The position numbers and the translations under genes were made by a program. The notes under the pieces are model-generated. The model worked only from the letters and a program-made list of their open reading frames with translations. It did not search any database and was not told the DNA's origin. Shown here piece by piece: positions 7,101-43,552 of a stretch of DNA of 43,552 nucleotides. The number at the start of each line of letters is the position of its first letter. Position 1 is the first letter of the stretch. The stretch covers positions 1 through 43,552 of IMG/VR virus record IMGVR_UViG_3300032093_000257; one strand, 5' to 3'. Source of the stretch: a virus.

Positions 7101-10100
7101 CGGGTCAGCAGGGTGCTCAACGCGCCGGGTGCGACTTGCAGGTTGGGGTTGACCAGACGCAGGATGGCCTCGACGGCGCGAGACATCAACGTCAGCAGCG
7201 ATCCGCGCTGCGGAGCGTTGAGCAACCGCTCAGCCGTCGCCCGCACAGCGGGAGGCATAGCGTTGAGGTCGTACTGCTGTTGGGCTAAGAACACCAACGC
7301 CTGCGGTCGGAACATCTCAGCCAACACCTCTGCGTTACTGCTGGCAGCGTATACGGCCGGGTTGAGGTTTGGAATCTGGGCGCGGATGTAGTTCAGCAGC
7401 AAGCCGATTTCACGGCCTTGCGGCGTCCCCGCGATAGCGTTGAGCCCGCGCACTGTCAGCGCGTGCAGGTACTCATGTGGAACTGTAGATGCAGTAGTGC
7501 TAGGGTTGAAGCCTACTGCGTGGTTAGCTCTGGTGTAAACGCCTCTGTAGCTGGGCGCAGTTTGAGAATACGAAACTGTAGGCAGCGGTATGCCAGTCTG
7601 CGTAAACAGTGAAAGCACAGTAGCCGCTGCTTGTCTGTTGGCAGATCCAGCGTTCTGATCGGTTGCCACCGACTGGAGAGGGTTGGTAGACGTGCGCACC
7701 GCTTCTGCCCAACCAGAAGTAGCGTTACGCACTTCGAGCACCAGCCCCATGTCGTCGCGCATCCGGCGTAGGTTTTCAGGAAGCTGATCGCTCGGCAGAT
7801 TGGTATACGCATCGCGCTGCTCAGGCGTCATCCTTCGGATGAGCGTGTCGGCTTGAGTCAAGGCCGTGATGCCGCCCTGCGCATCGCCGGGCTGAATACC
7901 GGCCAGAACGGTCTGCGCTTGCGTCTCGATCTGCGACAGGTCTGCAGGTGCGGGTGCTGCTGGCGTGGGTGCAGGCGCTGCGGGCGCAGGCAACGTAGGT
8001 GCAGGTGCGGGTGCGGGTGCGGGTGCGGGTGCGGGTGCGGGTGCGCCTGTGAGCGCCTGCATAGCTTGCTGTTGACGCTCGATTCGCCGTTGCTCGAAGT
8101 CCGCAGCCGTCGGGGCTGCGGGCGGTTCAGGCAGTGCCGGCGCAGGCGTACCGCTCATCGGCTCATAGTTACGAGTGCGCTGCGCGAACTGAGTTACGGG
8201 AGCGCGCAGTGTGGCAATAATATCGTTTGCTTCTGTGAGCGTAGTTCTAGCAAGGGGTGTAAGTTGTGCGGGGTCAGCTAAAGTTACACCACCGTCACCT
8301 GCAGATACAATGTTTATAAACGTACCGTCGCGCAGCTTTAAGCGCTGACCTAAACCTTCACCATTAACACCAAGAAGTAAACTGTTAAGCCCGTGCGCTG
8401 CAGCTAAACCTGCTTCTATTGTTTTACCAGAAGTAGCCGCGAGAGACGAGATGATGCCTGTATTCAACTGCATCGCAGTGTGCATAGCTTGAGGATCTAC
8501 CTCAGCTTCAGCATCTCGAATACGAGCCAAACCTGTCTCACGGTTAAGCACCAAGTTAGATTGCTCGGCGGCTTTACCGCTACGAGCAGCCGTGAGCTTC
8601 CCGTTGGCATCGCGGATAGCGACAACATCGCCTTGCTCTTCAACCGCACCGAACAACTTGCGCCCGCCAACGGTGGCACCCTTCACCCCGCCGGCCGTAG
8701 CGGCGCCCGTCAGAGCGCCCATAGTGCCGGCTTCGACGGCGCCCTCGAACAGGCCCTGCTCCAGTTGCCCTTCGCGCAGCGCGACGTTCTGAACGACCTG
8801 CGCACCACCTTCCTCGACGAACTCCTGTGCAGCTTCACCGAGTAGCGGCTTAACCACTCCTGCTGCTGCGCGCACATAACTACGCTCTGCCGTCTCGCTG
8901 GCCAGCTTTTGGCTGAACTCACGCAGCGGCGTGCCGGGCACCATCGCGGTCAAGCCGTAGCGTGAGAAGGCTTGGTTGATGGCAGTGCGCACCGGCCCAG
9001 ACAGAGCGCCGGCCTGCGTTGCAGCCCGCGCAGCCAAGCGCCCGGCACCGATCAGCGGTTCAACAGATCCAGCCGCAGCGCCAATGCCTCGCGCCATCAA
9101 TTCTGAATCTTCGACCAAGCGAGACGTGAAGGCCGTCTTGGCTCTGGCGCGATCACCGTTGAACTGCTGCACGAGCTCCCGGAACTGCTGGCTCTTGTCC
9201 AGTTCCGCATCCGGCATATTGGCGATCTGCTCGGCGATCCCGCCGGCAATCTCGGCCGAGGTGAGCTCTTGCCCGGCCGCCATACCGCCAGTGATACCAC
9301 CGACAAGGCCGCCCACGGCTGCGCCTTTTGGCCCTGCTATGGCACCACCCGCCGCCCCGCCAGCAGCGCCACCGCCGACCGACACGCCCATCGCGGCAAG
9401 CGTTGACGGCAGATTGCCGAGGACGTTGCGAACCGGGTCTGTCCAGAACCCCTTAGCGCCAAGCTCCGCTTCTTGCGCAACCGTAAGCTCTGCACTTCCG
9501 GTCTTGCGCATGTTCTCTTCTTGCATCTTTGCGCGCAAGAATTCGATACGCTTCTGCTCGTTCTTGGTGAAGTCGCTGAGGTTTGACTCGAACTGAGCTT
9601 TATCTTTAGCGCGCTGAGCTATAGCTGCAGCACGCTCTTCATCCGTCTTAGCATCACGAATCTGACGGCCGGTCCACCAGTTCTTTACGGTGAATGCTGC
9701 GGTGTCGTAGATGTCATTGTCGATCCACGAACTCTTCGGCTGCGCTCCTAGCGAAGCGCGAGTCTGAGCGTCGATGGTCTTGCGGGCAGCGGCGATGTCG
9801 GCCGGCTTCATGGGCCGGCCGGTGGTTTGCTGCACCCGAGCGACCGCCTCGTTCACCTGGGCATCGACCCAGAGTTTGCGCTGGTTGGCTTGCTCCTCGA
9901 AGGGCAGCGCCTTCCACTGATCTGACTCGCGAACCTCGGCCCAGGTCTTGCTCGGATCCACGTAGAGTTTGGGCGCTTCCTTGCCCGGCACTGCAGCGGC
10001 AGCGGCCGGGTTGACGGGCTCACCGAGCCTCGCGTTGACGGCGTCCTGGAGGGTGAGCGGCGCAGCCTGCTGCGCGGCCCGGTCTTCGCGTCGTTGCGCA

Positions 10101-10384
10101 GCGTCTTCCTTGCGTTGCGCGGCCTCGGCGCGGCGCGTGAGCGCATCGGCTGCACGCATCGCGGTGAGGTCGATGAGGCCGTCTGCACCGCGCTGGGGTG
10201 CGGGTGCGGCGGTGATAGCGGAGAAGGGGTCTACCGGGGCTGCAGCGCGGCCACGCGGGGCTGCAGCGGGTTCGCCGAAGGCGAGGTCAGGCGTGGTGAG
10301 ATCGATGAGCCCTGAGCCTTGTTCGGCGCCTTTTTGACGGAGTGCGCGGAAGATGGCGTTGGGGTCGAAGAGATCGGTTGCCAT
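1154..10384 (-). CDS. Giant polyvalent/ejection virion protein, 3076 aa
   Basis: The gene takes up about a fifth of the window. Order of visible parts: N-terminal low-complexity region; charged helices; a glycine-zipper hydrophobic stretch (about 330-372, GGAAGGAAGGAIAG); an HEYLH zincin motif (970-974) with acidic residues 45-50 further on (E1019, E1023) that could be the third metal ligand; several Ala-Pro linkers; two beta-rich repeats around 1320-1500; a PPAQ linker (about 2030-2062); long helical regions; and a conserved C-terminal region (TRWNLPFGPINMARDIWE, then a hydrophobic segment near 2760-2783) like that of phage polyvalent proteins (LPD38 type) and large internal virion proteins. 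Such proteins are packaged and injected with DNA, where they aid passage and counter host defence. A promoter lies just upstream. The domain names come from memory and would need profile searches. Confidence 0.8.
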   Translation of the reverse strand: MATDLFDPNAIFRALRQKGAEQGSGLIDLTTPDLAFGEPAAAPRGRAAAPVDPFSAITAAPAPQRGADGLIDLTAMRAADALTRRAEAAQRKEDAAQRREDRAAQQAAPLTLQDAVNARLGEPVNPAAAAAVPGKEAPKLYVDPSKTWAEVRESDQWKALPFEEQANQRKLWVDAQVNEAVARVQQTTGRPMKPADIAAARKTIDAQTRASLGAQPKSSWIDNDIYDTAAFTVKNWWTGRQIRDAKTDEERAAAIAQRAKDKAQFESNLSDFTKNEQKRIEFLRAKMQEENMRKTGSAELTVAQEAELGAKGFWTDPVRNVLGNLPSTLAAMGVSVGGGAAGGAAGGAIAGPKGAAVGGLVGGITGGMAAGQELTSAEIAGGIAEQIANMPDAELDKSQQFRELVQQFNGDRARAKTAFTSRLVEDSELMARGIGAAAGSVEPLIGAGRLAARAATQAGALSGPVRTAINQAFSRYGLTAMVPGTPLREFSQKLASETAERSYVRAAAGVVKPLLGEAAQEFVEEGGAQVVQNVALREGQLEQGLFEGAVEAGTMGALTGAATAGGVKGATVGGRKLFGAVEEQGDVVAIRDANGKLTAARSGKAAEQSNLVLNRETGLARIRDAEAEVDPQAMHTAMQLNTGIISSLAATSGKTIEAGLAAAHGLNSLLLGVNGEGLGQRLKLRDGTFINIVSAGDGGVTLADPAQLTPLARTTLTEANDIIATLRAPVTQFAQRTRNYEPMSGTPAPALPEPPAAPTAADFEQRRIERQQQAMQALTGAPAPAPAPAPAPAPAPTLPAPAAPAPTPAAPAPADLSQIETQAQTVLAGIQPGDAQGGITALTQADTLIRRMTPEQRDAYTNLPSDQLPENLRRMRDDMGLVLEVRNATSGWAEAVRTSTNPLQSVATDQNAGSANRQAAATVLSLFTQTGIPLPTVSYSQTAPSYRGVYTRANHAVGFNPSTTASTVPHEYLHALTVRGLNAIAGTPQGREIGLLLNYIRAQIPNLNPAVYAASSNAEVLAEMFRPQALVFLAQQQYDLNAMPPAVRATAERLLNAPQRGSLLTLMSRAVEAILRLVNPNLQVAPGALSTLLTRAAAEAMAETQTAMGVQRTPGGLDTTTQGVAPTPPAPTPPAPVAQPPAAPAPAPAPAPAPAPLPTGPLDDEALARQLTPGNNNLPSVAQEALDLARRLTQGRNIPEQYITATANAIVRMYFDLGLNLSTAAPAPAPAPAAGTAPNNPSLPAGTLTYPPGNQWTEVAWAVQLPQSVNGRDLFYGNTQEEAEANAAAAVAPAPAPAPEPAPSPAPEPAPAPAPEPAPTPVTTESTIVTVDELDRRVIEGETMRDVLRGLRAGDRLIQNNGSYYNVTSVSDDGNTVRLVGYRPDGTLAGSERSFTARDIFDALPDTATLTRVPGAATRPHTSADQAWRVENRFRLNSQQDRPFGSNGPGSGYTYVVRAIDPATNTVRVEATQAPGTFRTFNAQAMADLIDANIVTVDAVAAPAPAPAPAPAPAPAPAAPALPQLPQDLRGAAPYYRSHPVGFSSDIDRAAYIAAGTTRSSRDSDYVQWVRDQTGWTVSQVRDHGRAVRRVINGLSSRTWSRGRVGVPVQPLSFPVPASRPIVAATDAARAPTQAPAPAPAAGITRPTDPRTPYDPLDRTQRRIEPVRPLGVTRQRLLNLMRMLAGRVAQNEGFRSDRYLPPGSLPTDLVPLTASTSEKQAAFRRFVEAYATAATTKLQADLANANTLAEKQEVGKELFGINSPSGSYFSGMRVVGESIYFDFTDAYGGTSSQRATFDFSYNNGNDAHFYAAGFTANSGVGTPFYDAVYGAAVQSGLGITVTGLLDANKRRMPLNRLRAILRWGHKFNDLQRAERLLKLPTRHVDNPDPSFGTSFNLEGLFQRTEQTFLSGITPAARPVGFDFATGQLVVGPNRTPIPDVYDWLQTQSARISGQNEDFINRPTVDGLRLVGILRELMATTDDAQAQQLADSLTEQGTNRLFMRDTPEGGQRSILDDEPEDDAVFMQGQPPAPPAQPPAQPPAQPPAQPPAQPPAQPPAQPPAQPVSPRAPGATLAGVRAGAQAPLAGTLRSQFRQVLFSRVLSRQVRAQRLRELAQRAGNVLTESFADSLIPVVRWVESLAIPTGLRDRIVGAMYTAPNVRDNILAEARARYGGDQLNTELDALFQARRRNDRGATVEDVIRDAGYWVTARYALIKNARMLASDRQATADALQDLTNAQQRLTTAQRNNAPQDQLDALRDEITTAQTAYNDARATEADREFALNQSEGVDNHVGSSGRAVGLAGGMNNAQANAFMQRAEQLFGRQGLERVAQQVYRLNAFRMATDIESGRIDPANAVLFSPELAALAPEMARLQQLSATPGSTQAQIEAARNDFIDKLSRNSQYVPTTGDPEQGFEQDVLGSGFRAPNVARERRLMGRTGSLANDGITATLGGMQRSASAAGWRPFTNLIETAYNQMTDAQRQAAGIRRVPITALDRLSDNLIIVNQPDGSAVGYSIRDGAELGALRKENLETSSALGQAIQTPTRLFSTLVTRWNLPFGPINMARDIWERSENMRARNYRTASGRPVDSGKAANDMLRTALKSGLAKEIASLYFNKAMGRPLPNSKYALLLREFEEFGGGGSKYGTFLARDRRDFVDEVKKVGENRIFKSGRALAGYVGMWNDAFDSVAPLSAYAALRNQGMSKEDAAAGALDLMNFRKTGTAMPIVRALYAFAQPTVTGGVNLLKTLKTPVGRNRALVYTAGLMALHALLASLAGEDEELGKNKFDLLDDYAKERSLPLPLPNGEFLKLPLGFGLPSVANLLALRSREYFNGEKTGLEAANSLAFDALKQFAAPIEAPKIKDDNFKAAAQMFAPTILKSPLNVAINRGGLGQELVREQFLDKAQFKSEQGAPLTAEEYKWMARELRQMTGWDMAPEQMKEMLGTFALGPFRVAQQVMIDNPNKERQGREVAAPVVSSLIAGTSNAIIREFGKFEQAGLEAKREANAGTELTPEQQEIADLYDEWVEVEKGFRKRGAALTKAGVEKGVTEERTELRTERSQAQADIIRRFNELNR
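4201..4296 (-). repeat. 12-base tandem repeat encoding PPAQ linker
   Basis: Eight consecutive 12-base units of CAGGCGGTTGTG type (plus-strand reading) occur; the first four are identical, the next three share a T to C change and the last is degenerate. They encode a (PPAQ)n spacer in the giant virion protein, probably an extended, flexible linker. The two sequence blocks suggest growth by slippage or unequal crossing-over. Confidence 0.9.
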
Positions 10385-29647: not shown

Positions 29648-29893
29648 TTACTCTCGATTCTGTTCGATTTCCGGTTGGAAAGGAAGCGCCACCATCCGGG
29701 CTTCGTGTTCGCGCTGAGCCCTACGGTCGTCGCGGGCGCGGAAGTACAGGTTGGCGGCGAAGGTGGCGAGTGCGATCACCAAGCCTGCGATGGCTACCCA
29801 CTCAGACAACGTCATGCCGGCCACGAAGGTGGCTAGGCTGCTGGCGTAGCTGGCTTTGCCGGCCACCGCTGCGGATGCGCTGGGTTCGCTCAT
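29648..29893 (-). CDS. Putative holin, class II/III type, 81 aa
   Basis: This 81-residue protein has a small N-terminal hydrophobic stretch (about 18-28) and a clear membrane segment (about 32-51, WVAIAGLVIALATFAANLYF), followed at once by the charged cluster RARDDRRAQREHEARM. The sequence TLSEWVAIAGLVIALATF-x-x-N-x-YF resembles small holins of the HP1/lambda-S-like groups. Holins form lesions in the inner membrane that let the endolysin reach the wall. The ATG overlaps the preceding stop (TAATG). It lies 6 kb from the endolysin, inside the adhesin block, which is unusual. A structural membrane protein remains possible. Confidence 0.65.
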   Translation of the reverse strand: MSEPSASAAVAGKASYASSLATFVAGMTLSEWVAIAGLVIALATFAANLYFRARDDRRAQREHEARMVALPFQPEIEQNRE

Positions 29894-31029
29894 TACTTGA
29901 CCTGCATGATGAACAGTTCGTTGACGCGGGGGTCGGATGCGGTCGTAGCACTTTGCCCGGATTCAAGCGCAATGCTCAATGTGTCACCGATGACGCATTG
30001 CACAAACGCTTCACCGCACAACGGCACGGTCACATTGCCGCCTGTGGAACGGGTCTGTGAGATGTCGAACAACGCGCCGTTCTTCAGGAAGTTGAGCTGA
30101 ACATACTGGTTTGCGCTCCAGTTTGCAGACGCCAGCAACAGCGCCGATATGCGATACCAGCCAGCCACGGGGACAGTGAATCGGCCTGTGGTCAGATTGA
30201 ACGCCCCGGGCACTGACTGAGCCAGAATCGAGTGGTAGTTGGTTACCTCTGTTGGCGTGGAGTTGAAGGTCTTCGAGGCGTACTTGGCGTGCAACAAGAC
30301 CGGCGAATCATACCCGCTTACGCACACGACAACGGCGCTGGTTCCGGCCGCCGCGATGAGTGCTTGAAGCTGCGCGATGCGGGTCGGATTGGTGACCAGA
30401 GCATCGTCTTCGTAGTAGGCGGTCTGTCCGTTGAGCACCACTTCACGAACGATGAACGGAGCGCCGGTAGAACCGATGTCCACGAAAGCAGGGCCGAAAA
30501 TAAACGCCTGCGAGCCGGTGCCGCCAATCGCCAGCGAGTTGCTGGAGTAATCAACGGTAGGGTCGGCGCTATTGTAGAAATCAACAAACAGCGTGTTGCT
30601 GCCGTCGATGCGGACCTCTACTGAATTGAGCTGCGGCCACTGCGTCTGAAACAGCGGCAACACCTTGGACACCAACTCGGCCTGCAGCGTAGCCGGGGCA
30701 ACCCAATTTGTGCCGTTATGCACAGTGATGGGCGCAAAAGTCCCGACCACGCCCGGAGGACTGGAGTTGATGACATTCAGGAACTGTCCGTTGTTGAACT
30801 GTCCCTGCACCCAAGCGTACTGCAGTGAATCGTACCGGGTAATTGTGCTGTCAGTGAACTGATAGCAGACATCCGATTTCAGCCGGTCGGCATTGACTTC
30901 CACAGAATACGGAGACGATGCGGTGCCATCGCCAGAAACTGTGGTGGTGGCTCCATCAACGAGTTGCGCGTTGAGCTCTTCGTCGCCAAACCGATTGGTC
31001 GAAAGAAACGGACTTTGGTTTGTCGCCAC
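29893..31029 (-). CDS. Adhesin with C1q-like C-terminus, 378 aa
   Basis: This 378-residue protein has three parts. The start (about 22-48) has the VDGATTTVSGDGTASSPYSV module. The middle carries the module shared with the 33068-34807 gene (SKVLPLFQTQWPQLNSVEVR, then VLNGQTAYYEDDALV and TRIAQLQALIAAAG). The last 130 residues form a jelly-roll like C1q/TNF domains (GRFTVPVAGWYRISALLLAS, ...VNELFIMQV). Such ends trimerise and are typical for receptor-binding fibres. The GTG start at 31029 follows GAGGAGCTGTAATC. The intact Q codon (CAA) in TRIAQLQALI is the one that is TAA in the related gene. Confidence 0.65.
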   Translation of the reverse strand: MATNQSPFLSTNRFGDEELNAQLVDGATTTVSGDGTASSPYSVEVNADRLKSDVCYQFTDSTITRYDSLQYAWVQGQFNNGQFLNVINSSPPGVVGTFAPITVHNGTNWVAPATLQAELVSKVLPLFQTQWPQLNSVEVRIDGSNTLFVDFYNSADPTVDYSSNSLAIGGTGSQAFIFGPAFVDIGSTGAPFIVREVVLNGQTAYYEDDALVTNPTRIAQLQALIAAAGTSAVVVCVSGYDSPVLLHAKYASKTFNSTPTEVTNYHSILAQSVPGAFNLTTGRFTVPVAGWYRISALLLASANWSANQYVQLNFLKNGALFDISQTRSTGGNVTVPLCGEAFVQCVIGDTLSIALESGQSATTASDPRVNELFIMQVK

Positions 31030-31065: not shown

Positions 31066-31725
31066 TTACATCAAAGAGATTGTGAATTCGTTAAAAAATA
31101 CATTAGTGCTGACAGGGTTAGCTTTAGCACTCTGTATTTGGAATTTGATTTTAGCTCCTGCAGCTAGATAAACTTCCGTATATCCAGCCACGCGAATGTT
31201 TGTGGAGACGTTACCTTCTACGCGCTCTGCTGATGCATAGTTCAAAGCGCCGTTAACCATAAACATCAACTGCAAATAATCTCCTGCGGCCCAGGTACCG
31301 CCGAGAATCATTTGCGCGCTAATCTGATAGTAACCAGCGATAGGAACTGTGAACTCACCTGTTGCAGCATTCCACGCAGTCGGATGCGTGTTATGAATTG
31401 CTGTAGCCCAGTTGATTACATCTGTCGCTACGTTAGCCGCAGGGGTAAAACCACCGTTTGATCGAGCGCGCCACCTAACCGTAGTCGGGACATACGTGGT
31501 GTACAACCCCGTAGAGGTATTGTACACCCACAACGATCCATCGGTGCCGACGTAGATGTTGTCGTCACTTTGTCTGAGCGTAGGATCGTTTGTTGCCGGA
31601 GGATTGTTCAGATCAAAGATTGTAGCCGTAGCGGGATTGGTCGTATTGATATAGACCGTCTCCCCGCTAGGCGGCGGGCCAATCTCATCACCGTATCGGG
31701 TGATCGAAACGGTTGGGATCGGCAC
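31066..31725 (-). CDS. Adhesin with C1q-like C-terminus, 219 aa
   Basis: This 219-residue protein has an N-terminal module (ETVYINTTNPATATIFDLNN..., SLWVYNTSTGLYTTY, about 22-78) that is paralogous to the centre of the preceding gene product. It ends in a jelly-roll domain with TGEFTVPIAGYYQISAQMIL and a C-terminal NVFFNEFTISL strand. It looks like a short receptor-binding or fibre-tip protein. The GTG start at 31725 lies one base after the upstream stop, with AGGAG 7 bases before it. The AT-richer composition and different codon use compared with the head genes suggest exchange of adhesin modules between phages. Confidence 0.65.
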   Translation of the reverse strand: MPIPTVSITRYGDEIGPPPSGETVYINTTNPATATIFDLNNPPATNDPTLRQSDDNIYVGTDGSLWVYNTSTGLYTTYVPTTVRWRARSNGGFTPAANVATDVINWATAIHNTHPTAWNAATGEFTVPIAGYYQISAQMILGGTWAAGDYLQLMFMVNGALNYASAERVEGNVSTNIRVAGYTEVYLAAGAKIKFQIQSAKANPVSTNVFFNEFTISLM

Positions 31726-31726
31726 C

Positions 31727-33067
31727 TCAGAGCTCCTGGAATTGCATCATGTTGATGCTGGTGTTACCACTCAACGGATTTCCCGTAGCCGTCGTAGTTC
31801 CAGCAAACAGTGTGAATTGTTCGCCGGCCGTTAGGTACGCAATGTACGAGTTAGACGGCACCATCAACTGACCTGTGTAGGCAGTCGGGATTCGCACGTT
31901 ACTGGACATCACCGTTGTACCGCCCTTCCGAATTTGGAAGTAGGCGTTGGTGTTTGCTGCCCAGACGCTGGTCGCGCCATACTGAACAGAAGCACTGATA
32001 CGGTAGTATCCAGACTTGTTGACCGTGTAGGTACCGGTAGTGCCGTTCCAAGCACCGCCTGTAGTATCCAAGTCAGTTGACCAGCCAGTTACGGTGGCGC
32101 CACCGCCAGCAGGGATGACCTGTGTTGAAGCTGTTCTTACGTTAAGCAGCTTCTTGACAGACGATGGGTATGCGTAGGTGGTGTAGGTGTTCGTTGACGA
32201 ATTCCAAACCCACGATGTCCCGTCGCTGGCAATATACAGATTGCTGTCGTTTTGCTTCAGCGTGTTGTCGTTTGTCGTCGGCGGATTGTTCAGATCGAAG
32301 ATCGTAGCAGTCGTCGGTGACGTTGAGTTCACGTATACGATGTTGCTGAACGACGGATCTGGCTCTTCGCTGATGACGTAGGGATCACCAACCGTACCAG
32401 AACCCGTGACATCGATGCCCGTGCCGGCGATGATCTTCGTCTCACTGCCGTCAATCGTGGTCACTGCAGCCGGGTCGGTGCAGACGTTGTAGATGTAGGT
32501 GATGTCGATGCGATCACCGGCCAACAACGCAGTGTTGTTGTTCGCCGTGGGGACGTAGGTCGCCGTGGTGCCCGCCACCGTGGCAGCAGCATCGTTGAGC
32601 GATGCGCCGTTGCGGCTGAAGCGGATATCACCGCTGGGGGCACGCGACAAGGTGAAGCTCGTCTGGCCTGCCGTCGCCGTGAACGTCTCGGTGTCCATGA
32701 ACGCTTGGCAGGTGACACTCGACCCGCCAGCCTTGATGGCATCGCCGTTGGAGTCAACGATCCAGGTGTCCCCAGCGGCGTCCTTGAACGTGCTGTTCAG
32801 GTTCGTGGTGTTCCCGGTAGCCGTCGGGGTGGGTTGCACCGTCGTCAGCACATCCAGCGAGTCAGCCGCGCTGCCCGCCAGGATGGCATCACCGTTCGAG
32901 TCAACGATCCAGGTATCGCCGTTGGCGTCCTTGAAGGTGCTGTTCAGGTTGGTCGTGTTGCCGGTGGCTGTTGGGGTGGGCTGCACCGTCGTCAGCACGT
33001 TCAGCGGCTCGGCGGCGCAGTCAGGGCAGCAGACCACGTTGGAGGCCGTGGCGGCCGCGATCAGGGC
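31727..33067 (-). pseudogene. Downstream part of split adhesin gene after in-frame TAA
   Basis: This segment continues, in the same frame, the gene that ends at the TAA at 33068-33070. The codons straight after the stop read ALIAAATASNVVCC, which match IQALIAAATAADVSCC of the earlier repeat. The first initiation codon is GTG at 33037, giving 436 residues, but no Shine-Dalgarno stands before it. The visible parts are: two tandem 49-residue repeats (LNVLTTVQPTPTATG...), a T-rich beta region, the GTGIDVTGSGTVGDPYVIS module, a module shared with the next gene (VYVNSTSPTTATIFDLNN), and a C-terminal jelly-roll (TYTVNKSGYYRISASVQYG). It would be the receptor-binding part of a 1026-residue fibre if the TAA is an error or is read through. 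Confidence 0.7.
32725..33004 (-). repeat. Tandem 147-base repeat in adhesin
   Basis: Two direct copies of a 49-codon unit (starting LNVLTTVQPTPTATG and LDVLTTVQPTPTATG) lie end to end. The protein copies differ at only a few places up to the GDAI-x-AG end. The DNA is also nearly the same, so the duplication is recent. Confidence 0.85.
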
Positions 33068-34807
33068 TTAGATCTCCGCGATGCGGGTTGCGCTGGTTAC
33101 AGCCGTGCCGTTTTCGTAGTAGGTCGTGGTGCCGTTGACCGTGACAGCCTTGATGCTGGTGGTCGTGCCTGTGCCGCCTCCAGTACTGCAAGCGGGGTCA
33201 GGAATTTGAATACCTGTCCGTAATACTGGATCTCCAATGTTACCGCCACCAGTAACCCCATTTGTAGCAATTTTTACATAGGGCTCGCAAGGAGGCGTAT
33301 CACATAGACCGGTGTAATCTTTGTTAAGATCAGCCGATGCATACAGGAAGAAACTTAGAGTTAAACGTCCCTGCGAATTTACTTGTTCAAACGCAATTAC
33401 ACTATCCAACCAAGGTTGCTGCGTTTGATACCTAGACAGAACTTTCGATTTGAATTCTGCAGCTAACGACTCTAACGAAGCTGCCAATGTAGGCGCACTG
33501 TTAGATATGAGTATCGGCGGAGTGACGGGCGTCTCTACACCACTGTCCAACTCAGTGGTAGCTAATGTAAGCGTCGCACCCGGAACGTCATCGATTCTAA
33601 AAGTTATTTGAAAACCAGATACGTCAGCCGTAATGGTTGGGCAATCGCCACCACCACCACCACCGGTAAACTCGTAACAGATGTCAGTGTTCGGAGGCAC
33701 CGTAGCTTCAACGCAGTCGATAACGTCAGCGTACGTCGCTGCATTGACTGCAGTCTCAGCGGCTGTGATGTCGGCAGCCACAGTCAAAAGGACATCGTTC
33801 TTGTAGTAAGTCGATGTACCGTTGACCGTGATTACAGTGTACTTGTCGGCACCAATCTGGAAGCAGACTTTGGAGTCAACAGGCTCAACTGTTTCAGGAA
33901 TGCACTCACTGCAGCAGGACACGTCAGCGGCTGTTGCAGCCGCGATGAGCGCCTGGATCTCCGCGATGCGGGTGGTGTTCGTTACCTCGACACCCTCTTC
34001 GTAATAGGTCGTTACGCCGTTGACAGTGACGACCTTGATGTTGACGGTCGTGCCTGTGCCGCCACCGCCGCTGCAGCTTGGGTCGGCGATAGTTAACTGT
34101 TCGTCTTCATAACCACCTCCGTAGTTAGCCCCACCTTCAACACCATTGGTAGTCAAAATCAGGCCGATGCCGCATTCAGTTCCATCTGCGCATGTCCCGA
34201 CATAACTTCTAGTAGGATTCGTAGAATCATACATCCAGAAGTAAACTACCTTGCTGTCAGGACCAAAGTTTCCAAATGTTACCGTTACTTCATTCAGTTG
34301 CGGAACTTTAGCCGCATAAAAAGGCAGTACCTTTGCTTTGAACTCGGCCGCAAAGTACGCTTCATCTCCTGCAAGGGTAGGAGAGTTACTAGATATGAGA
34401 ATGGGTGAAGGGAGCGTATTGCGCACGCCATCCACTTCAACAACCGCAAGTTCTATCCTAGCACCTATCTGGCTAGGAAGCGCATAATCAACGCCATTAT
34501 ATGCACCGTTAACACCGGTCGTAATAGGAGGGCAACCGCCACCAGCGAACTGGTAGCAGATACTGGTATTCGTAGGTGAAGCGCATTCACTGCCGCAAGC
34601 ACCAATGGTGAACCCTGTAGGTTCAGTTGTAGTGAGCTCACCTGTTTCCAGGTTGATGTACTTCGTTACATCCGAAGGGCAAGCGCAATCGGACAGCGGA
34701 AGAAACTTCTTGTAAGGAACGCAGTTGACGCAGCCGTCGATCTCATAGTACGGCGTATTGCTGCAGTTAGCGCCAGCATTGCCGATGAGAGTAAGGTCGT
34801 TTGCCAT
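33068..34807 (-). CDS. Upstream part of split adhesin gene, 579 aa
   Basis: The protein consists of an N-terminal Cys-rich region (CSNTPYYEIDGCVNCVPYKKF) and two tandem copies of a long module (about 85-295 and 360-579), separated by a smaller unit. Each copy holds CYEF/CYQF-GGG, PILIS-NS-PTLA, an AAEFK-KVL-x-x helix and the closing VNG-TTYYE-G...TRIAEI. The second copy stops at TAA exactly where the first has CAG (Q) in RIAEIQALIAAA. Downstream codons continue the match in frame, so this is probably one gene interrupted by a nonsense codon. The binding site before the ATG at 34807 is poor. A fibre or adhesin shaft on the virion is likely; no enzyme motif is seen. Confidence 0.65.
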   Translation of the reverse strand: MANDLTLIGNAGANCSNTPYYEIDGCVNCVPYKKFLPLSDCACPSDVTKYINLETGELTTTEPTGFTIGACGSECASPTNTSICYQFAGGGCPPITTGVNGAYNGVDYALPSQIGARIELAVVEVDGVRNTLPSPILISSNSPTLAGDEAYFAAEFKAKVLPFYAAKVPQLNEVTVTFGNFGPDSKVVYFWMYDSTNPTRSYVGTCADGTECGIGLILTTNGVEGGANYGGGYEDEQLTIADPSCSGGGGTGTTVNIKVVTVNGVTTYYEEGVEVTNTTRIAEIQALIAAATAADVSCCSECIPETVEPVDSKVCFQIGADKYTVITVNGTSTYYKNDVLLTVAADITAAETAVNAATYADVIDCVEATVPPNTDICYEFTGGGGGGDCPTITADVSGFQITFRIDDVPGATLTLATTELDSGVETPVTPPILISNSAPTLAASLESLAAEFKSKVLSRYQTQQPWLDSVIAFEQVNSQGRLTLSFFLYASADLNKDYTGLCDTPPCEPYVKIATNGVTGGGNIGDPVLRTGIQIPDPACSTGGGTGTTTSIKAVTVNGTTTYYENGTAVTSATRIAEI

Positions 34808-36398: not shown

Positions 36399-37721
36399 TC
36401 AGAACTTCAGGCTCTTCTGGGTAGTTACGATAACGTCGCTCAACGTGCAGCTACCCTTCAGTATCTCAACATCGGTCACAGTTACTTCGCACTTGAAGTC
36501 GCTGGTGGAGTATCCAGATACCTTAGAAGCTACGATGAAGCTGCCTACGTTTGTGTTGACCTTGATCATGCAGCAGTCAGGTTTCTGGATGCTGATGCTA
36601 GTTCCAGGCAGCAACTCCGTCAAGTCATCGGCGAACGCGCTTGAGATAGTCGAATCACACTCAGGAACTTCGCATGCCCCGAGGTGAACGTCTCCCTCAT
36701 CGATGACCGTGTAGGTCGTACCATCGAGCTTGGTGTCGTACTTGTACTGGAACTCACCGTCCTGGTACACGAAGTGGCGCAAGAAACTGTTACCGTTCTC
36801 GCACATCTCGACGACTTCGGTATCCTTGCAGCACTTAACGCAGCCGGTAGCGGCGGCGTAACCAACGATAGTTGGCGTGGTGCAACCTTGCTCAATAGCG
36901 ACCGTGTGCTTTTCGTCACGCGCCGCCATGATGTAGCCGTACACATTTCCGTCGCAATCAGTCAACGGAACGGTAGCGCCTACAATCGAAGCGAAGGATT
37001 CAGAATACGCATAGCCGATGGTCTTGCCAGAGCAACTCTGGATAGGAACATCAGCGCAAGGAACCGGGCACTCACCACGGGTGAGCGTTGCGCCGGTAGG
37101 AACCGTGTAGGCTTGACCTTCTAGGTCGGTATCCCAGTACGCGCCAGTCGGCTGGCCCTGGGCATCGACGACATACCAACGGATGAACGTGTTGGTGCCA
37201 TCGCAGTAAACCTCTTGCTCAACCTCGGCCGTGCCGCACTTGACGAGATCGTCGAAGCTGCCGGTATATGGCGTATTGGTGGAGAGATTGGTTGCGGCAA
37301 GAACTGTAGGCGGAACGGTAGTGACGTCATATTGAATCAAGACCTCTTCCCCAGTAACGGGGTCGCACATCTTGACCAGTTCGCGGTCAGTCGTCTCGCA
37401 AATCTTGACCTTCATTACCGCATCGGGATGCGGTACGACTTGTACTAGGTCACATGTAGTGCCTACTGCAGTGCCCGTGGTTCCATCGCACTTCTCGTAT
37501 GGGATCGACAGCGGGTTGCATACCGGCTCAACGGGGATCGGGTCGGTCGATCCACAGATGGTGACGGGCTGAGCGTCTGCGCACGGATCCGGCGGTGTAA
37601 CCGGGATCGGCTTGGGGTGCATGGACTGCCCGGGAGGCGGGCAGCAGATGCCACTCGGTGACGTGGTGGTGGTTGTGCCCGTCACCGGAGGGCAGCAGAG
37701 CGCAGGCAGCCGCGTTGCCAT
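36399..37721 (-). CDS. Cys-rich structural protein, 440 aa
   Basis: This 440-residue protein has more than 30 cysteines, including the CC pairs CCPP (twice near the N-terminus), VKCCKD and PDCCM. It contains two copies of a module (about 165-215 and 305-355) with the pattern (E/Q)-V-x-CDGTNTFIRWYVVDAQG and VEMCENGNSFLRHFVYQDG, then Y-x-TDL-G-AYTV and GEC/GAC. The repeats look like small disulfide- or metal-stabilised beta domains. The ATG at 37721 is preferred to the TTG two codons upstream because of AGGTG spacing. It is the second gene after the portal, so it may be a head-tail or fibre-base protein. Family not recognised. Confidence 0.55.
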   Translation of the reverse strand: MATRLPALCCPPVTGTTTTTSPSGICCPPPGQSMHPKPIPVTPPDPCADAQPVTICGSTDPIPVEPVCNPLSIPYEKCDGTTGTAVGTTCDLVQVVPHPDAVMKVKICETTDRELVKMCDPVTGEEVLIQYDVTTVPPTVLAATNLSTNTPYTGSFDDLVKCGTAEVEQEVYCDGTNTFIRWYVVDAQGQPTGAYWDTDLEGQAYTVPTGATLTRGECPVPCADVPIQSCSGKTIGYAYSESFASIVGATVPLTDCDGNVYGYIMAARDEKHTVAIEQGCTTPTIVGYAAATGCVKCCKDTEVVEMCENGNSFLRHFVYQDGEFQYKYDTKLDGTTYTVIDEGDVHLGACEVPECDSTISSAFADDLTELLPGTSISIQKPDCCMIKVNTNVGSFIVASKVSGYSTSDFKCEVTVTDVEILKGSCTLSDVIVTTQKSLKF

Positions 37722-37723
37722 GA

Positions 37724-38008
37724 TCAAAGCACCTGAACGAAGGTGTTCACAAGGGTCTGGATCTTCTGGACTTTCTCGACGCTGTCCTTGGGTAGATCCA
37801 GTTCAAGCGGCAGATGCCAGTAGACATCGCGCACCCCTGCGACCAAGCCACCTTCGGTGACAGTGTAGTCGCGAGAAATGCCGCCGCGTGAAACTTGGAG
37901 GACTACTGCGTAGTCCAGCAATTTCGTCACCGTTCCTGGTCCGCCAGCCCTGCGGCTGAACAGGGTATCCCCGAGTTTGACCGGGCTTCCGGCGATCTTA
38001 ATCGTCAT
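37724..38008 (-). CDS. Small head-tail region protein, 94 aa
   Basis: This 94-residue protein is beta-rich to about 70 (KIAGSPVKLGDTLFSRRAGG, KLLDYAVVLQVSRGG) and ends with a helix (DSVEKVQKIQTLVNTFVQVL). It resembles an SH3-like barrel with a C-terminal helix, a fold often used in connectors, but the match is only by layout. GGAG stands 8 bases before the ATG. It follows the portal gene after a 70-base gap with a possible promoter. No cysteines, unlike the genes that follow. Confidence 0.55.
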   Translation of the reverse strand: MTIKIAGSPVKLGDTLFSRRAGGPGTVTKLLDYAVVLQVSRGGISRDYTVTEGGLVAGVRDVYWHLPLELDLPKDSVEKVQKIQTLVNTFVQVL

Positions 38009-38042
38009 AGCGTTCGCTCCGCAGGCGGGTTGACTCGCCGCG

Positions 38043-38072
38043 ACTGTAACGCATGCACGAAGCTAGGGTCAA
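38043..38072 (-). promoter_or_regulatory. Possible promoter after portal gene
   Basis: On the minus strand TTGACC (38067-38072, 5 of 6), an 18-base spacer and TACAGT (38043-38048, 4 of 6) stand in the 70-base gap after the portal gene and before the 94-aa gene. It could start the transcript of the adhesin block. Confidence 0.4.
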
Positions 38073-38078
38073 GCAGAC

Positions 38079-40190
38079 CTACACCGCCGCTGGAACTGCC
38101 GCACTACCTCCATTTGGCTGCGCGATGGCCGTTGGAATGGCGCTGATCGCTCCACTTCGACCATCGAGTTGCGGCACTTGCTGCATGCCTGAGCCCTGAG
38201 TCACGGGCCCCTGCGATGTGGCAATCGCAATCGCGTTCTCGGTGATGGGGTCGGACATCCCCAGCGCCTCCGTCGGTGTGCCCATGTCCTTGAGCAGATC
38301 GGTGTAGGCCCACTTGCCCAGCTCGGGCGGTGCCATTCCAGACTGCACTGCCTGCATGCTCAGACCCAGGCGTTCGGTCTTGGCCTTGCGCTCTTGCTCT
38401 TGCGCCAACAGTCCGACCACGCCGACATAGTTCATGTCCAGGTCTGCGTTTTCGACCAGCGCGGGGTTCTCGTCGAGCACGTACTCGAACAGCACATGCC
38501 AGATACCCTTGAGGCTGGTGTCCTCTGTGAACGCAGCGTTGCGCACCCGGCGCACAGCCTGCGACACACGCGCACTCAACTCACCCAGGCTACCCCGGCC
38601 GAAGGTGCTCATGTCTGCCAGATCGGGCACGCCCACCTCGCCGTCAGCCTGACGGATCAGGTTCTGGATGATGGGGAACAGGATCTGGTACTGCGCCGTC
38701 GGGCCACGGATCGTGCGGATGGGGTCAGGGCTGACGCCAGGGCCGATCAGGTCGGACACCTCGTACTTGCCGCCCGGGCGGATAGAGCGGGCTTCCTGCG
38801 GGTTCTTCAGGGCCTCGGGGTTGGTCTGCAGCGGGGGCCGCATTGACCAGTCGATGTTGTTTTCCCAGATGTACCACAGGGTGTTGATGCGCTGCTGGGT
38901 GTCGTGCAGGATGGCCGGCACGCCCACACCGTTCCAGATCCCAGCGCCCATGTCGTCGAACTTCGTTGTGGCGTAGGAGCGCGGCAACTCGGCGCGCGGA
39001 TCCTTGACCTCCACGCGGATGGTGCGGCCGCAGCAGATCTCGGCGCACACGTTGTAGACCTCGGTGTCGTCGTAGCCGGTCAGGCCGTGGTTGTAGAGGT
39101 CACGGCCCGTCACGAAGCCCTCGTGGTGGATCACAGCCACCAGTTCCTCCGGGCCCCAGTAGGTGCTCTTCTCACCGTTCTCGGACACGGTCTGGGAGCT
39201 CTCCGGGAACATCCAGGTGCGCGACTTCATCGAGTAGTCGTCGAGGATGTCGAGGATCGCTTCGCGGTCGTAGCGCTTGTCGGAGGCCATACCCACCAGG
39301 GTGGTCTTGTTGATCTCGCGATACTCCATGCAGGCCGTCGTGTCGAGCACGTTGCGCCCGTCGGCGGTAGGGAAGAAGTTCCACGGGTTCACGTCCTGGA
39401 ACGTGGGGATGGTCTTCCACACGCGCTGGGGCCGGCCTTTGCCGTCCTGGGAATCGCTGAGCACCACGCGCCGCTGCCAGTAGGGGAAGCGCATGATGGC
39501 CACGCCGTACTTGATCTGGTTCAGGCTGAACGCGGCGTAGGCTTCGCGGAACCCTCCCTCGATCACGGTGTCGTGCAGCTTGACCTGGATCTCGTTGGCG
39601 GCCGAGGATGCAGCCTCGACGATCTTGGCGCGCTCGATCGATCGCAGCGCGATGGCCTTGTCGTCCAGGAAGCGCTTGACGCTCTCATGCAGGCGCCCGT
39701 TGCTCACGTTCATCAGCATGCGGGGGTCAGCCAAGCCGTTGCTCAGCATGCGCTCCACGAGCTCGTTCTTGACCTTCTCCTTGATGCGCTCGATCGACGA
39801 GCGAGGCAGGCGCGGAGAGGGCGTGGGGATGATCTTGACCAGGGCCCCGGGGTCGCCGGCCACCAGTTCACTCTTCCAGTTGGAGATGGCCACGGTCTTG
39901 GCCGCGCTCAGCCCGTAGTAGCGAGTCGGGCAGAACCCGAAAGCGTCCGTCAAGCCGTTGATTTCCTCCGGCGTGAACCGCTTCTCCATCGCATAGTCGG
40001 CCTCACGCAGCAGAGTAACCGTGCTTTTACCCTGATATACATTGTTGTTCTGCTTGAATTGCCTAGCATCGCGGAAGCGTTGCATCACAATCTTAGCAAT
40101 AGTGTCGCCCATCTCATCAGGTTGAACCATGTCTTCCTGATAAAAACTCAATGTATTGGGTGCGTATCCAGCACCAACTGCTGCGTACAT
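38079..40190 (-). CDS. Portal protein
   Basis: This 703-residue protein follows the large terminase, the standard place of the portal. Size and layout fit the large podovirus portals (P22 and Bcep22-like type): an N-terminal region with long helices (SSIERIKEKVKNELVERMLS), a stem and wing region with a beta-rich part (WKTIPTFQDVNPWNFFPTAD) and a C-terminal helical domain (ADGEVGVPDLADMSTFGRGS, then RVSQAVRRVRNAAF). Twelve copies would form the DNA gate at the unique vertex and dock the terminase. The ATG at 40190 has GAAAGGTCAACC before it, in preference to 40235, which would overlap the terminase gene. The C-terminal tail is Gln/Ala/Pro-rich. Confidence 0.85.
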   Translation of the reverse strand: MYAAVGAGYAPNTLSFYQEDMVQPDEMGDTIAKIVMQRFRDARQFKQNNNVYQGKSTVTLLREADYAMEKRFTPEEINGLTDAFGFCPTRYYGLSAAKTVAISNWKSELVAGDPGALVKIIPTPSPRLPRSSIERIKEKVKNELVERMLSNGLADPRMLMNVSNGRLHESVKRFLDDKAIALRSIERAKIVEAASSAANEIQVKLHDTVIEGGFREAYAAFSLNQIKYGVAIMRFPYWQRRVVLSDSQDGKGRPQRVWKTIPTFQDVNPWNFFPTADGRNVLDTTACMEYREINKTTLVGMASDKRYDREAILDILDDYSMKSRTWMFPESSQTVSENGEKSTYWGPEELVAVIHHEGFVTGRDLYNHGLTGYDDTEVYNVCAEICCGRTIRVEVKDPRAELPRSYATTKFDDMGAGIWNGVGVPAILHDTQQRINTLWYIWENNIDWSMRPPLQTNPEALKNPQEARSIRPGGKYEVSDLIGPGVSPDPIRTIRGPTAQYQILFPIIQNLIRQADGEVGVPDLADMSTFGRGSLGELSARVSQAVRRVRNAAFTEDTSLKGIWHVLFEYVLDENPALVENADLDMNYVGVVGLLAQEQERKAKTERLGLSMQAVQSGMAPPELGKWAYTDLLKDMGTPTEALGMSDPITENAIAIATSQGPVTQGSGMQQVPQLDGRSGAISAIPTAIAQPNGGSAAVPAAV

Positions 40191-40200
40191 GGTTGACCTT

Positions 40201-41661
40201 TCAGCCGAAGGCGCCTTGCCGCGGATTAGATACACCGCTTGCTATGCCGCCACCTCGGAATGCTCCGCGTGTGTCATACACACGAGGATCAAATTTGCCA
40301 GCTCCACCTAGCGCATCGCCATGTAGGTCTGGGTCCATATCTCCGAGATTAACGCCTAGCTTGGACGCGTGGTGCAAGCTATAGGTCATCAATGCGGAAC
40401 TTGCGTGTGAATGTTCGTCGTGTACGGGCGTTGTCACGAACTCGCCCGTCGTCTTGTTGACCGGGTAGTGGTACGCCTTCCAGTGCTCGAAGGCGGCCAC
40501 AGCATCGGGGTTTGATTCGTTGACCTCGACGTTGCGCAGCATCTGCGCTCCCACCGAGATCTGGGTCTTGATGCGGGTCTGGGGCATGCGCGTGAAGTGC
40601 AGGCCCATGCGCTTGGCCTCGTCCATCCGGGACACACCTCGCAACCACTCCCGGTTCTGGATGTCGTGGGGCCCGATGTGCTGGCTGTAGACGTAGCCCT
40701 TCTCGGCCTTCTTGTTCTTCAGCACCTCGATGTAGGTGTCCAGGCCCAGGCCCGTGCCCTCGAAGGCGTCGATCAAGCGGTGGCGGGTGTTGACCTCTTG
40801 CCAGAACAGGATCACGGTGGAGTCGCCCACGCCCAAGTCCCAGGAGGTGGACACGCCGAAGCGCCGGTCGTGGTGCATCGGGCGCAGCCGCCCTTCGAGT
40901 TCGAGCTCGGAGATTTCGTCGCCCCACACCGCGCCGATGAGCGCGGCCTGGAACGAGCACTTGTACTCCTGCTCGAAGATGGCCTCGCCGATCTTCTTGC
41001 CGTGCTCACGGATAAGATCGAGGCGAATGCGATTGAGTTGCGCAGGGGGAAACACGCTCGTGTCTTCGGCCGTGAGCTTGGCCGCCAGCACGGTCTTGTC
41101 CCCTGAATCCATGTCCTCTTTGGCCGCGAGGTAGTTGCGGTAGAAGTGGTTCTTGCCGCGCGGCGTGGAGATCTGAAGCTCGAAGCCGCCAGATTCCTCC
41201 AGGATTGGTCGGAAGAACTGCATGGCGCGCGGATCCGACAGCGCGGCCTCCGACAGCACGATGCCCACTTGGCCGCCGCCCACGAGGCTATCGACTTGGT
41301 CCGAGCCGATGAGTTGGATGGTGCTGCCCGACTCCAGCCACAGCATCATGGACTGGTTGTCGCGCTTGACAACGATCTCGGGCGGGAACGCATCATCGAC
41401 GCGGGCGCGCTTGGTGCGCCAGTTCACCATCTCCCAGATCGTCTTGCGCGCCTGGGCGTACTGGGGCAAACAGTACCAGTACGAACCCGGGCGTTGCATG
41501 GCCTTCACGGCCATCATCTGCAGAGCCAACTCGTCCTTGCCGAAACGCCGATGCGCCACGATGGTTCCGCGACGGAAGTCGTCGCTCATCATGGTGCGCC
41601 AGATGGGCATCTGGTCTTTGCGCGGGCGCCAGTCGTAGGCTGGCAGGGCGAAGTCGGTCAT
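40201..41661 (-). CDS. terL: Terminase large subunit
   Basis: This 486-residue packaging motor has all the classical elements. The Walker A-type loop is AHRRFGKDE (36-44), a deviant of the GKT/S form that is usual in terminases. The Walker B strand is VGIVLSEAA with catalytic E138. The coupling motif is STPRGKN (165-171). The RNase H-like nuclease has D275 in SWDLGVGDST, D333 in HIGPHDIQ, and the acidic end HDEHSHASSAL (414-424). It cuts concatemers and drives DNA into the prohead with ATP. The ATG overlaps the preceding stop (ATGA); there is no Shine-Dalgarno, so coupling is required. The portal ORF starts 10 bases downstream. Confidence 0.92.
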   Translation of the reverse strand: MTDFALPAYDWRPRKDQMPIWRTMMSDDFRRGTIVAHRRFGKDELALQMMAVKAMQRPGSYWYCLPQYAQARKTIWEMVNWRTKRARVDDAFPPEIVVKRDNQSMMLWLESGSTIQLIGSDQVDSLVGGGQVGIVLSEAALSDPRAMQFFRPILEESGGFELQISTPRGKNHFYRNYLAAKEDMDSGDKTVLAAKLTAEDTSVFPPAQLNRIRLDLIREHGKKIGEAIFEQEYKCSFQAALIGAVWGDEISELELEGRLRPMHHDRRFGVSTSWDLGVGDSTVILFWQEVNTRHRLIDAFEGTGLGLDTYIEVLKNKKAEKGYVYSQHIGPHDIQNREWLRGVSRMDEAKRMGLHFTRMPQTRIKTQISVGAQMLRNVEVNESNPDAVAAFEHWKAYHYPVNKTTGEFVTTPVHDEHSHASSALMTYSLHHASKLGVNLGDMDPDLHGDALGGAGKFDPRVYDTRGAFRGGGIASGVSNPRQGAFG

Positions 41662-42086
41662 GCGACGTAGGCACCAATCCCGGGGTCAGGACACAGCACA
41701 GCGCCCTTGATGAACGCGCCGATCACGGGGTCGGGGCAGAAGTCGCCCAACACGAAGCAGCCGATCTCGGGGTATGGGCAGCGGGTGTTGTCGCACGACG
41801 GGATCGGGTCGGGCGATCCGCCGTCGCCGTCGTAGTTGCCGTCACCTGCCGTGACCTTGCAAGGCGGGCTGTAGACCAGCATCGAGTGGCAGCCGCAGTC
41901 GCTCACGAGCTTCAGGCGCCACACGCCGGGCGGGATGGTGGCGGTGGTTCTGAGCGTGGCCGTAGCGCCGTCATTGTTGGTCACCGTCAGGTCGTAGGTG
42001 ACCTCGGTGCCGCACGGATTGCCTACGAGGTAGGCTTTGGTCACGCCAGTGGCGTTGACGATGAACGGGCTTGCGAACTGCTTCAT
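41658..42086 (-). CDS. Cys-rich protein with CPDPxIG repeats, 142 aa
   Basis: The first 75 residues form a beta-rich domain (VNATGVTKAYLVGNPCGTEV, PPGVWRLKLVSDCGCHSML), and the rest holds three repeats of a C-P-(Y/D)-P-x-IG-x-(F/Y) unit (CPYPEIGCFVLG, CPDPVIGAFIKG, CPDPGIGAYV). These look like short turns tied by cysteines or metal. It overlaps the large terminase by 4 bases. A beta-sandwich with a repeat tail just before terL is unusual; it may be a decoration protein. Function unknown. Confidence 0.6.
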   Translation of the reverse strand: MKQFASPFIVNATGVTKAYLVGNPCGTEVTYDLTVTNNDGATATLRTTATIPPGVWRLKLVSDCGCHSMLVYSPPCKVTAGDGNYDGDGGSPDPIPSCDNTRCPYPEIGCFVLGDFCPDPVIGAFIKGAVLCPDPGIGAYVA

Positions 42087-42096
42087 CGGGATGCTC

Positions 42097-42396
42097 TCAG
42101 TCTGTCAGGCCGGGATTGTCTTCGGCTTCGTCGTACCTCGGTCCGGCGGCGATCTCGTAGACGAACGCGATGAAAAACAGCCCCAGCAGCACCCACAACG
42201 CGATGGGTAGCACGTAGACCAGCACAGCGGCCGCTAGGACGCGCGTGCCGCCGCAGCACGGGCACTGGCTGCCGAAGTACTGCAGCGCCCGGCCCAGCGG
42301 CTGCAGGGGTATCGCAGCGTCTCTGTCGCAGGGGTTGGCCTTGAACAGGTTCTTGGCTTCGTAGAAGCGAAGCCATGCGTCGAGTAGGCGCTTCAC
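42097..42396 (-). CDS. Small membrane protein with CPCC motif, 99 aa
   Basis: A helical start (RLLDAWLRFYEAKNLFK) is followed by a cysteine motif (CPCC, 45-48), a long hydrophobic segment (about 53-82, ending in FFIAFVYEIA) and an acidic tail. The GTG start at 42396 overlaps the preceding stop (GTGA), with GAGG before it. It could have one or two membrane passes. Its position next to the terminase genes does not suggest a role. A holin-like or membrane-anchored accessory protein is possible, but unproven. Confidence 0.55.
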   Translation of the reverse strand: MKRLLDAWLRFYEAKNLFKANPCDRDAAIPLQPLGRALQYFGSQCPCCGGTRVLAAAVLVYVLPIALWVLLGLFFIAFVYEIAAGPRYDEAEDNPGLTD

Positions 42397-42581
42397 GTCA
42401 CGGTCCTCGGCGGCGTGCTGCCCGGTGCGTGGGCGTGTTCGTACTTGTCGCGGTTCGCGCCGATGTGGCGCAGGGTTTTGTGTGCAGGCTGTTTTCCACA
42501 GTTGCAAGCGAAGAAAACTTCGCCCGTTTCCTTGTTGCGGTAGTGGCCTGTGCGCAGGACTTCGTCGAGGGGGATGCTCAT
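42393..42581 (-). CDS. Small CNCG-motif protein, 62 aa
   Basis: This 62-residue protein reads MSIPLDEVLRTGHYRNKETG, then VFFACNCGKQPAHKTLRHIG and a His/Pro-rich tail. The CNC pair, with several histidines, could bind a metal, but a full four-ligand site is not clear. The start at 42581 has no good binding site; translation could be coupled. It lies in a row of small genes between the terminase subunits. Unknown family. Confidence 0.5.
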   Translation of the reverse strand: MSIPLDEVLRTGHYRNKETGEVFFACNCGKQPAHKTLRHIGANRDKYEHAHAPGSTPPRTVT

Positions 42582-42618
42582 GGTGGGGATGAGTGGTTGG
42601 TGGTTGATGAAACGAGGC

Positions 42619-42813
42619 TTAGTCAGCCTCAACGACAACGGTGGCCCGGATGCCGGCCGCGCGAAGCTCGGCGACCTTCTCCTTGACCTCAGCGATCTCG
42701 TACATCTTGGCAGCCTGGGCGGGCCACATCGCGGGGCTGGCAACGGCCGGTCCGATCGTGGGCCGGGGCGAGTTGCGCATTGCTCGGTTGAGCGCTTCAG
42801 AGACGGTAGGCAT
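42619..42813 (-). CDS. Hypothetical 64-aa protein
   Basis: This is a helical protein of 64 residues (MPTVSEALNRAMRNSPRPTI..., AAKMYEIAEVKEKVAELRAA) ending in a strand (RATVVVEAD). AAGGA stands 8 bases before the ATG, and the start lies 1 base after the stop of the preceding gene, so it is clearly a member of the packaging operon. No cysteine, no membrane part. It may assist packaging or head assembly; not recognised. Confidence 0.6.
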   Translation of the reverse strand: MPTVSEALNRAMRNSPRPTIGPAVASPAMWPAQAAKMYEIAEVKEKVAELRAAGIRATVVVEAD

Positions 42814-42814
42814 A

Positions 42815-43216
42815 TCAGAGTCCTTCGTGCAGTGTGAGCTTCAGGGGTGTGGCGGGGGCGGGGTCGGTGGGCTGACCTTCGTCGTCGAACGTGCGAAGCG
42901 TCAGCCGGGTGGGCTTGTCTTTCTTGGCGTCGTAGACGGTGGTCTTGAAGGTCTGCGGCACAAACGCCTCGGCCGCCAGTTTGAGCATGGCGTCTGACTT
43001 GCCCTCGGTCGCGCGCTCCAGCACGGTCAGCCGGATCGCGTCTTGGAAGAGCTCCAGCGCGTCATCGACCTCGGCCTTGAGATCGCCGTCTCGTTCGAGC
43101 AGACGCTTGAGGTGCGAGGGCGCAACCCCAGCGTTGGCCGCCGCAAGCGACAGCGTGCCGTACGCCTTGACGGTCTGAACGATCACATCGATCTGTTGAC
43201 GTGTGAGGTTGAGCAT
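42815..43216 (-). CDS. Terminase small subunit candidate
   Basis: This 133-residue protein has an N-terminal helix-turn-helix (about 18-40, TLSLAAANAGVAPSHLKRLL) of the type found in small terminases, then helices (DDALELFQDAIRLTVLERA, SDAMLKLAAEAFVPQTF) for oligomerisation, and a flexible Thr/Pro end. The small subunit recognises the packaging site and loads the large subunit. The ATG at 43216 is chosen although the frame is open further upstream, because the extension is low-complexity Arg/Pro/His. It is the first gene of the late region, and four short genes separate it from the large subunit, which is less usual. Shine-Dalgarno weak. Confidence 0.7.
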   Translation of the reverse strand: MLNLTRQQIDVIVQTVKAYGTLSLAAANAGVAPSHLKRLLERDGDLKAEVDDALELFQDAIRLTVLERATEGKSDAMLKLAAEAFVPQTFKTTVYDAKKDKPTRLTLRTFDDEGQPTDPAPATPLKLTLHEGL

Positions 43217-43552
43217 GCGCGGATCGTAACGGGCGTGGGGGAGAAGTGCAAGTGGGGGAATGCGCGGTTTATTTCGCGTAACTCGTAGCGCGGGGCGCTG
43301 ATTTTTATAGCGGGGTGCGCGTATAGGAATGGGGTAGGTGGGTGGAACGCGTGGCGCTGGTGCGCGGTGCGCGGTGCGCGGTGCGCGGTGCGCGGTGTGC
43401 GGTGTGCGTGGCTCGATGCGCGGTGCAGGAAAAAGCAGGGGGTGGGTTGTCACACACCGCGCCCCCGCTCCAGCGCGTAGGGGGGCGCGCATAGGCGCGC
43501 ACGCAACGCGCACCCGCTACGCGCAACGCACGCACGATGCGCACGCACGCGA
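43217..43552. other. Non-coding GC-rich leader region
   Basis: These 336 bases hold no credible gene. Contents: a heptamer tandem repeat (43361-43409), a TATAAA box on the minus strand (43304-43309) without a good -35, an A5 run (43430-43434), and a very GC-rich end with many CGCGC and ACGCAACG words (43480-43552). The long reading frames here have Arg/Pro/His-only composition and are accidental. It may contain a packaging site, an operator or a genome end. Confidence 0.5.
43361..43409. repeat. Heptamer tandem repeat upstream of small terminase
   Basis: Five exact copies of TGCGCGG stand end to end (43361-43395), followed by two altered ones (TGTGCGG, TGTGCGT), and another exact copy after a 7-base break (43117+306 to 43123+306, that is 43117 is not meant; the copy lies at 43417-43423). 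The spacing of 7 bases is strict. Iterated sites next to a small terminase can be recognition sites for packaging or for a repressor; here this is only position-based. Confidence 0.85.

Follow-up and report, generated by a model that had tools for sequence, protein, structure and literature searches.

A modular phage adhesin gene interrupted by a single in-frame TAA, probably a recent nonsense mutation or a consensus error

Results

An interrupted adhesin gene in a tailed phage

The stretch of DNA analysed here (hereafter, the window) is a linear IMG/VR virus record of 43,552 bases. It carries genes of a tailed phage, including those for a terminase, for an internal virion protein with podovirus relatives and for a head-tail connector or portal protein (38079-40235). 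One gene of 3076 codons (1154-10384, minus strand) takes up a fifth of the record, and its matches to known families are very weak. The adhesin cluster, all features of which are given below on the minus strand, is directly followed by a holin-like gene (29648-29893, minus strand; PHROG holin families, E 1.7e-15).

The adhesin gene under study extends from 34807 to 31727, where it ends with TGA, and comprises about 1026 codons if the internal TAA at 33068-33070 is counted. That TAA is the single internal stop of an otherwise open frame, as reported in an earlier note on this DNA, whose coordinates, peptide strings and codons proved right. The 5' part (33068-34807) has its own ATG and encodes 579 amino acids, with two repeat units of which the second is shortened by the TAA. 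The 3' part (31727-33067) consists of 446 open codons devoid of a credible start of their own and encodes linker modules followed by a C1q/TNF-like head.

Two paralogues lie directly downstream. The first (31066-31725) corresponds to the 3' end only, to which it is 40% identical. It has its own GTG and GGAG, and it is the model of what a genuine separate head gene looks like at this locus. The second (29893-31029) is intact and encodes, in a single frame, a C1q-like head preceded by the unit and motif found in the interrupted gene.

A repeat that continues through the stop

The TAA is found inside a direct repeat of 183 nt, ungapped and 75% identical between 33017-33199 and 33902-34084. Each copy encodes a hairpin-helix motif. 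The first copy (33902-34084) is intact and has CAG (33953-33955) at the position of the stop; the second (33017-33199) spans the TAA. The intact paralogue has CAA at the same position (30364-30366), and thus the two sense codons that the earlier note had attributed to homologous intact copies are indeed in place. Nucleotide identity to the first copy is 0.756 before the stop and 0.729 after it, with dN values of 0.22 and 0.23, respectively. As one ungapped 183-nt repeat includes the TAA, we judge that the homology across the stop is not due to chance. Assembly collapse between the two copies was also considered and appears unlikely at 75% identity.

The intact unit was modelled with AlphaFold at only moderate quality overall (mean pLDDT of 58.8), with the hairpin and helix motif at about 63-85. 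In this model, the residue homologous to the stop position is located within a predicted helix and not at a domain end. If the prediction holds, a natural chain end inside the motif helix would be odd. As for composition, the GC3 values of the unit bodies (34100-34576 and 33194-33697, minus strand) are 0.40 and 0.37, and those of the motif ends and following modules range from 0.72 to 0.89. Judging from these values, the adhesin seems to be mosaic, with segments of differing composition.

Linker modules and head downstream of the stop

The first LNVLTTVQPTPTATGNTTNLNSTFKDANGDTW module after the stop (32873-33018) is followed by a second copy (32726-32871), relative to which its dN/dS is about 0.08. 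The two LNVLTTVQPTPTATGNTTNLNSTF module copies of the 3' part have a dN of 0.05 and a dS of 0.66, which indicates strong constraint at the protein level. The 44-residue module (LNVLTTVQPTPTATGNTTNLNSTFKDANGDTWIVDSNGDAI; 32726-33018, minus strand) is 91% identical in amino acid sequence to a segment of another contig, G003 (L015, 4153-4284), in a gene that is otherwise different. The LNVLTTVQ module is rare, with matches in one viral contig and, distantly, in a Saprospiraceae genome. From its distribution, the 44-residue module may be a mobile building block of adhesins, uncommon in the collections.

The C-terminal head (31730-32060) is the part that would be lost if translation ended at the TAA. 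Its profile matches C1q-family chains (E 3e-7), and a Foldseek search with a moderate model retrieved TNF/C1q structures (E 1.5e-7). By comparison with other phage fibres, the head presumably forms the receptor-binding tip. In having a C-terminal domain of this type, identified by both profile and structure searches, the adhesin resembles the trimeric-head proteins of phage fibres, bacteria and animals. It differs from them in having no known close relative over the whole protein and no match in the phage collection.

Relatives of the locus

No relative of the adhesin over its whole length was retrieved when the annotated phage collection, Pfam and PHROGs were searched with protein, profile and blastn queries. 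A sister phage, G001 (IMGVR_UViG_3300044846_002275), was identified whose terminase and internal virion protein are 67 and 65% identical, respectively, to those of the window. It is the only relative that covers the adhesin locus, and its gene is 34-42% identical to that of the window, in short shared parts. The gene order is the same, and a single open frame (L013, 6113-7861) encodes the motif and then the VYxNxxxPxxxxxFDxxxPP domain that the window has beyond its stop. The G001 motif aligns across the stop, with GAT at the homologous codon. The comparison with a related genome at this codon, which the earlier note had proposed, thus gives one continuous frame with a sense codon.

Terminase and portal scans revealed further relatives (L017, L021 and L022), all of which are fragments ending before the adhesin. 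The only near-identical contig, L004 (IMGVR_UViG_3300031787_009306), matches the window over 37001-43548 with two mismatches. These are at the extreme end of the contig and look like contig-end noise. L004 ends short of the TAA and was not retained as a measure of polymorphism. A DNA pattern in which the stop codon was left free retrieved no other contig over the site across IMG/VR.

Potential start signals after the stop

The first GTG is located 30 nt past the stop (33037), with an anti-Shine-Dalgarno pairing of -1.7 kcal/mol, compared with a median of -6.0 kcal/mol for the gene starts of the window. The first ATG comes 369 nt past the stop and lacks a Shine-Dalgarno sequence. The earlier note had claimed that the 3' part has no ribosome-binding site of its own. 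This stands for the GTG and the ATG, which are poor candidates, but a GGAG (33074-33077) had been overlooked nine nt upstream of an in-frame CTG (33062-33064), itself 3 nt past the TAA, which makes that CTG a weak candidate for restart. The predicted anti-Shine-Dalgarno pairing of this GGAG is -6.6 kcal/mol, on a par with the genome median. A GGAG followed by an NTG within ten codons occurs at about 1.2% of random internal points in the genes of the window. The arrangement is somewhat unusual, therefore, though it was singled out post hoc. The intact first copy already has this GGAG within its coding sequence, where GCGGAGATC is identical.

As a control, we searched for other single stops between long same-frame stretches. 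Three such stops were found on the coding strand, in the ordinary gene pairs at 12282 and 20688 and at site 17049, and two more on the opposite strand. At 17049, the true next gene is in another frame. In the pairs at 12282 and 20688, the next ATG is 9 or 18 nt past the stop, with Shine-Dalgarno pairing of about -6 kcal/mol. One stop between two long same-frame stretches is by itself not rare in the window.

Discussion

Judged on sequence, the TAA interrupts one gene. This conclusion is drawn from the repeat that extends across the TAA, the intact paralogue at 29893-31029, the single frame of G001 and the placement of the residue within a helix. The earlier note had listed a nonsense change in a former single gene among its options, and the first three of these observations back it. 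We consider it probable, at roughly 0.86, that this modular phage adhesin has recently suffered a point nonsense mutation or else that the stop is a consensus error, a figure that covers both. The ancestral product would have been one chain, made of hairpin-helix repeat units, linker modules and a C1q/TNF-like trimeric head. Translation from 34807 would now end at 33068 and yield a 579-residue protein devoid of the head, and the 446 codons downstream would be untranslated or translated only in traces. The TAA might be a real nonsense variant of the phage, or the consensus might contain an error or a minor allele at this codon. We infer that the truncated form is present in virions.

The absence of any further stop or frameshift in the downstream frame suggests that the interruption is recent, or that it is not real. 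A stop would arise from 112 of the 4014 single changes that are possible in the 3' part, and a frame of 446 codons that is still open implies that neutral changes since selection was lost number fewer than about 0.08 per site. The route from CAA by a C to T change, put forward in the earlier note, could have been taken, but it is not demonstrated: CAG, CAA and, in G001, GAT stand at this position in the other copies, a variety that leaves the ancestral codon unfixed. As two other head-bearing genes (31066-31725 and 29893-31029) lie directly downstream, losing a single head would not necessarily kill the phage.

A comparable situation has been described in the kayvirus 812K1/420, in which the tail fibre gene (orf119) is split by a premature stop and the RNase H gene is split in frame by a nonsense mutation (PMC6445280). 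In both cases, an adhesin gene is divided into two ORFs, in 812K1/420 in a viable phage, and the RNase H gene of the latter illustrates a split by an in-frame nonsense mutation. The two cases differ in that the tail fibre stop of 812K1/420 results from a 77-bp deletion in an isolated and resequenced mutant, whereas the change described here is apparently a point change, seen in one metagenomic record without reads.

Might the 3' part nevertheless be translated on its own? Ribosomes that terminate at the TAA could restart at the CTG by means of the GGAG at 33074-33077, so that a separate head chain would join the truncated stalk. Besides the strength of the predicted pairing and the low frequency of such arrangements by chance, a GGAG also lies near the stop and start at the two junctions that follow in the operon (31727 and 31066). 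However, those junctions use GTG, and CUG is a very poor start codon, accounting for 0.024% of bacterial starts and being 0.86% as efficient as AUG (PMC11497404). Moreover, the GGAG appears to be inherited coding sequence, the split would fall inside a predicted helix, and G001 has one frame. We thus regard a restart at this CTG as improbable. Its elaborate form, a two-subunit adhesin in which termination and immediate CTG restart would supply stalk and head separately at a fixed low ratio, is very improbable.

It is just as improbable that the two parts are an ancient pair of separate genes that share a frame by chance. Same-frame neighbours do occur in the window, the head-only gene at 31066-31725 is a case of a head encoded separately, and the G003 gene has its own ATG, starting shortly before the LNVLTTVQ module. 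Nevertheless, the repeat and the motif continue over the stop, and in the true same-frame pairs of the window an ATG with a good Shine-Dalgarno sequence follows the stop after 9-18 nt, which is not so at 33068.

Programmed read-through of the TAA, by which a little full-length adhesin would be made beside the short form, appears highly improbable. The downstream frame is open and has evolved under protein-level constraint, and a stem starts about 9 nt past the stop. However, that stem is unexceptional (z -1.7, with 10 of 200 shuffles folding equally well; z -0.9 around the stop), ordinary genes of the window also terminate at a TAA with a G after it, and G001 lacks the stop. No Rfam element was matched around the stop. 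The coat protein of the RNA phage Q-beta is a known case of read-through, at a leaky UGA that is conserved among relatives. The adhesin resembles it in that a structural gene is followed by a long in-frame open extension, but its TAA is not conserved and has an undistinctive context.

Last, suppression or an altered code, with the TAA read as an amino acid in the phage, is extremely improbable: although the frame stays open past the stop and glutamine is encoded at this position by the other copies of the window, TAA terminates about a dozen other genes of the window, and the phage recodings described in Crassvirales and Lak phages concern TAG or TGA (PMC11210395). Those phages likewise have in-frame stops where relatives have sense codons, but their reassigned stop recurs across many genes, unlike the one TAA of the adhesin gene, in a record in which TAA is otherwise a normal terminator. 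No tRNA gene was found in the 43.5-kb record, which may be a fragment. With TAA a normal terminator and neither a tRNA nor an RNA element detected in the window, the read-through and suppression options of the earlier note find no support.

The split adhesin is thus most likely ordinary and does not reveal a new way of making two proteins. If the stop is an error, the locus is a caution against annotating two genes for one. If it is real, one host-binding protein of this phage population has been stripped of its head, which would be ordinary receptor-binding variation. Neither outcome raises a new question.
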